Under the pieces are notes generated by a model. It was not told where the DNA came from. It saw only the letters and a program-made list of their open reading frames with translations, and did no database searches. Shown here piece by piece: positions 42,929 to 45,867 of a DNA stretch of 49,859 nucleotides; position 1 is the first letter of the stretch; every line of letters begins with the position of its first letter. Location of the stretch: assembly GCA_020847635.1 (NCBI GenBank), contig JADLBQ010000070.1:1-49859 (forward strand), in the 5' to 3' direction. The stretch comes from Bacteroidia bacterium. GTDB lineage: Bacteria; Bacteroidota; Bacteroidia; AKYH767-A; OLB10. A program made the position numbers and the translations under genes.

Positions 42929-43240
42929 ATGACAAAATCAGAAATAGTTGAGAATATTTCAAGTAAAACCGGAATTGAAAGAATGATTGTACAATCAGTC
43001 ATAGAATCATTTATGAATGAAGTGAAAGACCGCTTATCGGAAGGTGAAAATATTTACCTACGCGGATTTGGCAGCTTTATTTGTAAAAAGCGTGCACAGA
43101 AGACCGGGCGGGTAATATCTACTGGTCAGCAGGTTATTATCCCTGAGCATTATTTTCCTACTTTCAGACCAGCTGAAGAATTTATTGTCAGGGTTAAGGA
43201 AAATGTCAAACAACTTAAGCCTTCAAAAGAAGACAGGTAA
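42929..43240 (+). CDS. HU family DNA-binding protein
   Basis: 103 residues of the HU/IHF fold: MTKSEIVENISSKTGI at the start, the dimerising VQSVIESFMNEVK helix, the IYLRGFGSFICKKR strand, then the DNA-binding arm and PTFRPAEEF near the end. It bends and compacts DNA. The reading frame extends 27 codons upstream but the promoter at 42855-42886 lies inside it, so the ATG at 42929 is used. First gene of an HU-TPR-small ribosomal protein-RNase G run. Confidence 0.94.
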   Translation: MTKSEIVENISSKTGIERMIVQSVIESFMNEVKDRLSEGENIYLRGFGSFICKKRAQKTGRVISTGQQVIIPEHYFPTFRPAEEFIVRVKENVKQLKPSKEDR

Positions 43241-43246
43241 TTGAAA

Positions 43247-44089
43247 ATGAATGGTAAAACAGCCAAAATAATTGCTATACTGGCTGCCTGTGTTCTTACC
43301 CTGGTGATTTATCTTTTCCCGAAAAAGACAATGTTGGATACAAATCCGGCAGTTGTTGAATTACCATCGCTCAATTCAGAGGATTATTTTTCTGAACTTG
43401 AAGAACATCAGGAAGCTAACCTGGACCAGAAAGAGAAAGAAAAGCTTGCAGGCTGGAAACAGTTGGTCTCTGAATCAGGAAGCAAAAGAACAGATCTCTA
43501 TGATTCGATTTCTTCAATCTGGGATACTCATAAACTATTTTCACTTTCAGCATTTTGGTATGAACAAAAGGCAAAGAAAGATGGCACAGAGAAGAGCTAT
43601 CTCAATGCTGCATACCGTTATTTTGATGCCCGAAAACAATCAGTTGATACCTCAGTAAAACGGATGATTACTGAAAAAACAATTGCTGCTTATAATAAAG
43701 TGCTGGACCTTAATCCTGAAAATCTGAATGCAAAATCAGATTTGGGGGTACTTTACACGGAAGATGGCAGTAACCCGATGAAAGGAATCAAAATGTTACA
43801 GGAAGTTGTGGCTGCAGATCCTGATCATGAAATGGCACAGCTGAATCTGGGACTTCTTGCTTACAGGTCTAATCAGCTTGACAAAGCATTAGAGCGATTT
43901 GACAAAGTTCTCCAGATCAATCCTGACCGGATTGATATGCATATCTATAAATCACAGGTTTATCGGGAACAGGGCAAAAGCAGTAAGGCTATAGATGAGA
44001 TTGAAAAATTTATAACATCTGCCAAAAATCCGGAGATGATCAATGAAGCTGTAAAAATGATTGATGAAATAAAAGGAGAAGCTAAGTGA
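43247..44089 (+). CDS. Membrane-anchored TPR protein
   Basis: 280 residues. One N-terminal membrane segment (about 7-25), a linker, then TPR-like helical repeats from about 120 on (DLNPENLNAKSDLGVLYTE, NLGLLAYRSNQLDKALERF, YKSQVYREQGKSSKAIDEI). The protein should face the periplasm as a protein-binding scaffold. The frame begins at a TTG at 43241, right after the HU stop, but the ATG at 43247 is preferred. The HU-TPR-RNase G order recurs in Bacteroidota, to my knowledge. The partner is unknown. Confidence 0.82.
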   Translation: MNGKTAKIIAILAACVLTLVIYLFPKKTMLDTNPAVVELPSLNSEDYFSELEEHQEANLDQKEKEKLAGWKQLVSESGSKRTDLYDSISSIWDTHKLFSLSAFWYEQKAKKDGTEKSYLNAAYRYFDARKQSVDTSVKRMITEKTIAAYNKVLDLNPENLNAKSDLGVLYTEDGSNPMKGIKMLQEVVAADPDHEMAQLNLGLLAYRSNQLDKALERFDKVLQINPDRIDMHIYKSQVYREQGKSSKAIDEIEKFITSAKNPEMINEAVKMIDEIKGEAK

Positions 44090-44153
44090 TCAGGAGTAGG
44101 GTCAATCTGAATTTACTTAATAAATGAAAATAAAACAGTAAAAACATAAAAAT

Positions 44154-44243
44154 ATGCCTAGTGGTAAAAAAAGAAAGAGACATAAAATGTCAACCCATAA
44201 ACGGAAGAAGCGTTTAAGAAAGAACAGACATAAGAAGAAATAA
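44154..44243 (+). CDS. Tiny basic ribosomal protein, bS22/mS38 (AURKAIP1/COX24 domain) type
   Basis: 29 residues, nearly all Lys, Arg and His: MPSGKKRKRHKMSTHKRKKR then a similar basic end. The KMxxHKRKKR core is the signature of the COX24/AURKAIP1 domain, which in mitochondria is mS38 and in actinobacteria bS22, both bound to the small ribosomal subunit. I read the gene between the TPR gene and RNase G, where Bacteroidota genomes commonly place it. It is too short for most ORF cut-offs. ATG and TAA are clear; codon usage is rich in AAA, AAG and AGA. Confidence 0.8.
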   Translation: MPSGKKRKRHKMSTHKRKKRLRKNRHKKK

Positions 44244-44310: not shown

Positions 44311-45867
44311 TTGAACACAGAATTGATTATAAATTCGACTGAGGGAGATGTACAGATTGCTCTGCTTGAAGACAAGCGCCTGGTCGAATTAAATAAAGAA
44401 AGAAAGGACAGCAACTATTCAGTTGGTGATATCTATTTGGGTAAAGTTCGGAAACTCATGCCCGGACTTAATGCTGCATTTGTAGAAATTGGATACGAGA
44501 AAGATGCGTTTTTGCATTACCTTGATCTTGGCCCCCAATTCCAATCATTAAACAAATATATTAAAGGTGTTCTGAATAACCGAATCCAGGATGGATTTCT
44601 GAGAAATTTTACTGCTGAACCCGATATTGAGAAAACCGGCAAGATTACCCAGGTAATGACAGCAGGGCAATGGCTTATGGTGCAAGTTGCAAAGGAGCCG
44701 ATAAGTACAAAAGGTCCAAGAATCACTACCGAACTTTCAATACCCGGCCGGTACCTTGTTCTGGTTCCGTTTTCAGAAACCATATCGGTTTCCTCAAAAA
44801 TTAAAAGCATTGAGGAGCGAAGCCGGTTAAAGAAGCTTGTTTATGGAATAAAGCCAAAGCATTTCGGACTGATAATCCGTACGGTAGCAGAAGGTAAAAG
44901 GACAGAAGATCTTGAAAAAGATGTACAGGATCTGTTAGGTAAATGGCAGGCATGTTATTCAAAACTGAAGACTTCCAAGCCACCGTTTAAATTACTTGGT
45001 GAAATGGACAGAACCAGCACAATCCTTCGGGATATGCTGAATCCGCAGTTTAATGCCATTAATGTAAACGATCAGGCATTAGCCAATGAAATCAGGCATT
45101 ATATTGAAAATATTTCACCTGAGCAGAAGGATATAATAAAAGTTTACAAAGGGAAGGAACCAATCTTTGAATTTTATGGAGTTGATAAGCAGATAAAATC
45201 GGTTTTTGGAAAAACAGTGAATCTGCCAAACGGTGCTTATCTTATAATTGAGCATACCGAAGCAATGCACGTCATTGATGTCAATAGCGGAGGCAGAAAC
45301 AAGAACAGTGAAGACCAGGAGAACTCAGCACTTGCCGTAAATGTAGCAGCTGCAAAAGAAATTGCCCGTCAGTTGAGACTTCGTGATATGGGAGGCATCA
45401 TCATTGTTGATTTTATTGATCTTCATACACCTGAGAATAAACGAGAGTTGATTGCATGCCTAAAGGCAGAAATGAAAAAAGACCGGGCACGGCATACTGT
45501 ATTGCCTCCGACAAAATTCGGGCTGGTTCAGATAACCCGTGAGCGGGTTAGGCCTGAGGTAAAAGTTGAAACAATTGAAAAGTGCCCGTCTTGTGACGGG
45601 ACCGGAAAGATTAAACCGGCTATTCTGATTGTAGATGACATTGAAAACAATATCCGCTATTTTATTCAGCAACAAAATGAGAAGAAATTAAGCCTGAAGG
45701 TTCATCCTTTTATTGAAGCCTATTTGAAAAAGGGTGGATTCTTAAGATCTGTTAAATGGAAATGGTTACGAAAATTCAGACACAAGATTAAAATTGAGGC
45801 GGTTTCTTCATACCATTTTACTGAATACCATTTCTTTAACAAAAGTGGTGAAGAAATCAAGATATAG
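44311..45867 (+). CDS. rng: Ribonuclease E/G
   Basis: Endoribonuclease for rRNA 5' maturation and mRNA turnover. 518 residues. An N-terminal S1 domain (about 38-130) contains VGDIYLGKVRKLMPGLNAAFV, followed by the 5'-sensor and the DNase I-like catalytic region with Asp ligands in HVIDVNSGG and IIIVDFIDLH. A zinc-link CPSCDGTG motif comes near residue 428. Start is TTG at 44311: an in-frame stop lies at 44296-44298 and the family begins with the same NTELIINST segment. The gene follows the small ribosomal-protein gene by 67 bases. Confidence 0.95.
   Translation: MNTELIINSTEGDVQIALLEDKRLVELNKERKDSNYSVGDIYLGKVRKLMPGLNAAFVEIGYEKDAFLHYLDLGPQFQSLNKYIKGVLNNRIQDGFLRNFTAEPDIEKTGKITQVMTAGQWLMVQVAKEPISTKGPRITTELSIPGRYLVLVPFSETISVSSKIKSIEERSRLKKLVYGIKPKHFGLIIRTVAEGKRTEDLEKDVQDLLGKWQACYSKLKTSKPPFKLLGEMDRTSTILRDMLNPQFNAINVNDQALANEIRHYIENISPEQKDIIKVYKGKEPIFEFYGVDKQIKSVFGKTVNLPNGAYLIIEHTEAMHVIDVNSGGRNKNSEDQENSALAVNVAAAKEIARQLRLRDMGGIIIVDFIDLHTPENKRELIACLKAEMKKDRARHTVLPPTKFGLVQITRERVRPEVKVETIEKCPSCDGTGKIKPAILIVDDIENNIRYFIQQQNEKKLSLKVHPFIEAYLKKGGFLRSVKWKWLRKFRHKIKIEAVSSYHFTEYHFFNKSGEEIKI

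Follow-up and report, generated by a model that had tools for sequence, protein, structure and literature searches.

The bS22 locus

The window analyzed here, a 49,859-nucleotide stretch of contig JADLBQ010000070.1 from a Bacteroidia bacterium, carries a short open reading frame on its forward strand at positions 44154–44243. The frame opens with an ATG at 44154, closes with a TAA at 44241–44243 and encodes the 29-residue peptide MPSGKKRKRHKMSTHKRKKRLRKNRHKKK, which we assign to the small-subunit ribosomal protein bS22 (also annotated as AURKAIP1/COX24 domain protein) on the basis of PDB matches, conservation, and codon pattern. A preliminary description of this DNA had reported clear start and stop codons and 29 residues, as found here, along with a KMxxHKRKKR string, which is present as KMSTHKRKKR. 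It had counted 19 Lys, Arg, or His residues; on recounting there are 20 of 29 (11 Lys, 6 Arg, and 3 His).

The same description had placed the ORF between a TPR gene and RNase G, and this location is confirmed. Upstream lie genes for an HU-family DNA-binding protein (42929–43240, forward strand; PF00216, 89.5 bits), which is a conserved upstream neighbor, and a TPR-repeat protein (43247–44089, forward strand; TPR_19, 53 bits), which is found at this position in much of the class Bacteroidia. Downstream is a gene for an RNase E/G family protein with a TTG start codon (44311–45867, forward strand; PF10150, 331 bits), a neighbor that recurs across the class. The TPR gene and the ORF are separated by an A/T-rich leader (44090–44153, forward strand) with no Shine-Dalgarno sequence directly before the ATG. 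Comparable A-rich leaders precede bS22 in other Bacteroidia, and AGGAG-like sites are found before the gene in many relatives outside the class.

A frame so short, and of such low-complexity basic composition, might be thought spurious, the chance reading as Lys and Arg codons of intergenic sequence rich in A and G. However, in the whole window this ORF is the only open stretch with at least 15 Lys, Arg, or His per 29 residues, and the best value in 20 Markov-simulated windows was 15, reached in a single one of them. What shows the ORF to be coding, beyond its composition, is conservation: the peptide is kept throughout the phylum while its codons drift synonymously, and chains of the same protein exist in the PDB. 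Conservation and solved structures together refute the spurious reading, to which we give a negligible probability. The 29-residue ORF is a real gene.

Conservation and genomic context

In a sample of 296 genomes drawn across Bacteroidota, bS22 is present in 290, and it is present in 59 of 61 relatives, in both cases nearly always as a single copy. The two relatives without it are represented by assemblies that are 80% and 58% complete, and the source genome has one copy. Codon differences among 75 relatives comprise 995 synonymous versus 156 nonsynonymous changes, and by codon position 1101 differences fall at third positions versus 65 at second positions. These counts indicate that bS22 is under purifying selection at the codon level.

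A scan of contigs with a degenerate nucleotide pattern representing the K20 variant matched Borrelia/Borreliella, Karelsulcia, and one metagenome-assembled genome. The symbiont Candidatus Karelsulcia muelleri, whose genome measures 285 kb, retains a bS22 of 29 residues (L087:1534–1623, reverse strand; MPNGKKRKKKKIATHKRKKKSRKNRHKKK), with flanking genes that differ from those in the other loci.

The preliminary description had made its reading depend on conservation at the same locus in related genomes, and in this respect it was borne out. Among 58 loci compared (40 from class Bacteroidia and 18 from outside it), an HU-type gene lies upstream of bS22 in 56, including 39 of the 40 Bacteroidia loci. 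RNase G lies directly downstream in 40/40 Bacteroidia loci and in 0/18 loci outside the class. Within the class, this adjacency suggests possible co-expression of bS22 with an rRNA-processing function. The RNase G genes beside bS22 appear to start with TTG (16) or GTG (6), and never ATG, in all 22 loci with a readable N-terminus (44311 in the window; L002 and L034–L058 elsewhere), an assignment limited to codons no more than a few residues from a conserved motif.

Such a constant arrangement, together with the TTG and GTG starts, could also be explained if the ORF encoded a leader peptide or peptide regulator of the RNase G gene and not a ribosomal component. Outside the class, however, the peptide is kept with no RNase G nearby, its neighbors are different again in Karelsulcia, and its orthologues are located in the ribosome. 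Because bS22 persists outside the class without an adjoining RNase G, it is not merely a leader for that gene, and we regard this explanation as very unlikely.

Matches to ribosome structures

A phmmer search of the product against solved structures gave full-length matches to PDB 9i5v chain 10 (E = 5.1e-10), an AURKAIP1/COX24 domain protein identical at 26 of 29 residues in the printed alignment, and to Flavobacterium johnsoniae 7jil chain 5 (E = 1.5e-9), as well as a match to Borrelia bS22, 8fmw chain V (E = 4.2e-6). All three alignments are ungapped and span residues 1 to 28 or 29. A profile built from 13 family members (A1) retrieved the 9i5v, 7jil, and 8fmw chains from the solved structures and no others. 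The F. johnsoniae protein comes from the same phylum and aligns without gaps over 29 residues, differing by four substitutions (M12V, S13A, L21A, and K23A). The Borrelia burgdorferi protein (PMC10618245) shares length and register, with the pattern KxSTHKRKKxxRKNRHKK, but belongs to a different phylum and is read from a GUG start.

Because the matches to ribosome chains are full-length and the gene is conserved at its locus, the product is almost certainly bS22, of the type found in Bacteroidota and spirochaetes. The ribosomal identity proposed in the preliminary description thus stands, and the ribosome density that it had suggested looking for is already represented by the orthologous chains in the 9i5v, 7jil, and 8fmw ribosomes. 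It had called such genes poorly studied in Bacteroidota; the protein has, in any case, been seen in this phylum, where structures of the F. johnsoniae ribosome already include bS22. The protein is therefore known from this phylum as elsewhere, the gene itself is not new, and the finding is correct but ordinary. Its interest lies in the confirmation of a gene small enough to escape annotation, and in showing that this ribosomal protein occurs in almost all Bacteroidota and keeps a conserved position beside HU and RNase G.

No NCBIfam model matches the 29-residue product. This, like the Pfam score below cut-off described in the next section, can be expected for a protein of 29 residues. A separate source of confusion is found in the PDB, where one F. 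johnsoniae chain sequence (7jil chain 5; also 9oz9, 9ozn, 9ozz, and 9p0e) has been deposited under two names, 30S S22 and 50S L38, a double naming that can mislead annotation transfer.

Relation to COX24/mS38 and actinobacterial bS22

The preliminary description had gone further, ascribing one common sequence core to this peptide, actinobacterial bS22, and mitochondrial mS38, and here the profiles lend no support. Pfam COX24_C (PF08213) scored 12.2 bits against the product (E = 0.17), below its curated cut-off of 23 bits, and was matched by 4 of the 13 family members at E values up to 1, the best being 0.022. A COX24_C search of the whole source genome did not recover the bS22 gene and gave two matches elsewhere, both below the cut-off. 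Alignment with hhalign to a profile of actinobacterial bS22 returned a probability of 3.8% over 6 columns, the profiles being very short and shallow. A Mycobacterium smegmatis bS22 sequence, used only as a look-up, matched PDB entries exactly. For short, compositionally biased peptides, a failed profile match is no evidence against homology. No significant sequence-profile relation to the ORF product was found for actinobacterial bS22 (M. smegmatis and Cutibacterium acnes) or mS38/COX24, but they occupy the same rRNA pocket in published structures, and it is on this shared pocket that the link rests (PMC10618245, PMC10085706).

Binding site and proposed role

In Borrelia, F. johnsoniae, and mycobacteria, bS22 is described in a pocket formed by 16S rRNA helices h2, h27, h44, and h45 together with 23S rRNA helix H68 (PMC10618245). 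In C. acnes, the contacts are with 16S h27, h44, and h45 and with 23S H67 (PMC10085706), and that study also mentions bS22 in F. johnsoniae.

In the mechanism that we propose, bS22 would be a constitutive small-subunit protein, a very basic peptide lying as a bent helix in the 16S rRNA pocket (h2, h27, h44, and h45), close to the decoding region and at the base of the 30S neck. From there it would reach 23S rRNA (H67/H68) and provide an extra intersubunit contact, which would stabilize the 70S ribosome and probably also the neck and decoding region. Orthology points to the same binding role in the source organism.

A peptide this cationic might instead act as a free antimicrobial, and in vitro the C. 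acnes bS22 does inhibit both bacteria and cell-free translation (PMC10085706). The sequence, however, has no signal peptide, and it is conserved both across the phylum and in the minimal genome of a symbiont. The peptide is moreover known as a component of the ribosome, so that any antimicrobial effect would be secondary; we consider a primarily antimicrobial function extremely improbable and retain the assignment as a ribosomal protein.

Absence of bS22 in two genera

The six genomes without bS22 in the phylum sample are near-complete and fall into two genera, three in genus g80 (family f24) and three in genus g100 (family f36). A search of all six with the family profile found no bS22 either. 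When family f24 was surveyed, 51 of 58 genomes had the gene and all 7 negatives belonged to g80, in which 7 of the 12 surveyed genomes lack bS22 and 5 other species keep it. At the g80 loss loci, HU and its convergent neighbor are still adjacent and are 71–95% identical to those of a bS22-positive g80 species (L099, L100, and L101 from genomes G273, G282, and G226, compared with the positive loci L076, L095, and L096). In these three genomes, the gap between the two genes is shorter and no frame for bS22 is present in it.

It is probable that one living lineage can do without bS22: several g80 species would have lost the gene by clean deletion from the HU-linked locus, while sister species keep it. 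Since some lineages dispense with it, bS22 is not universally required. The loss from part of a genus at the usual locus, together with absence from a second genus, may be new. Natural losses of this kind offer a route to function without genetics, since, if the deletion reading is true, there are natural pairs of ribosomes, one having bS22 and the other lacking it, that could reveal what the protein does. In genus g100, where bS22 is absent from 3/3 sampled genomes (L102, L103, and L104), a zinc-ribbon-like ORF with the motif CPSCG...CNQCG comes directly after the HU gene.
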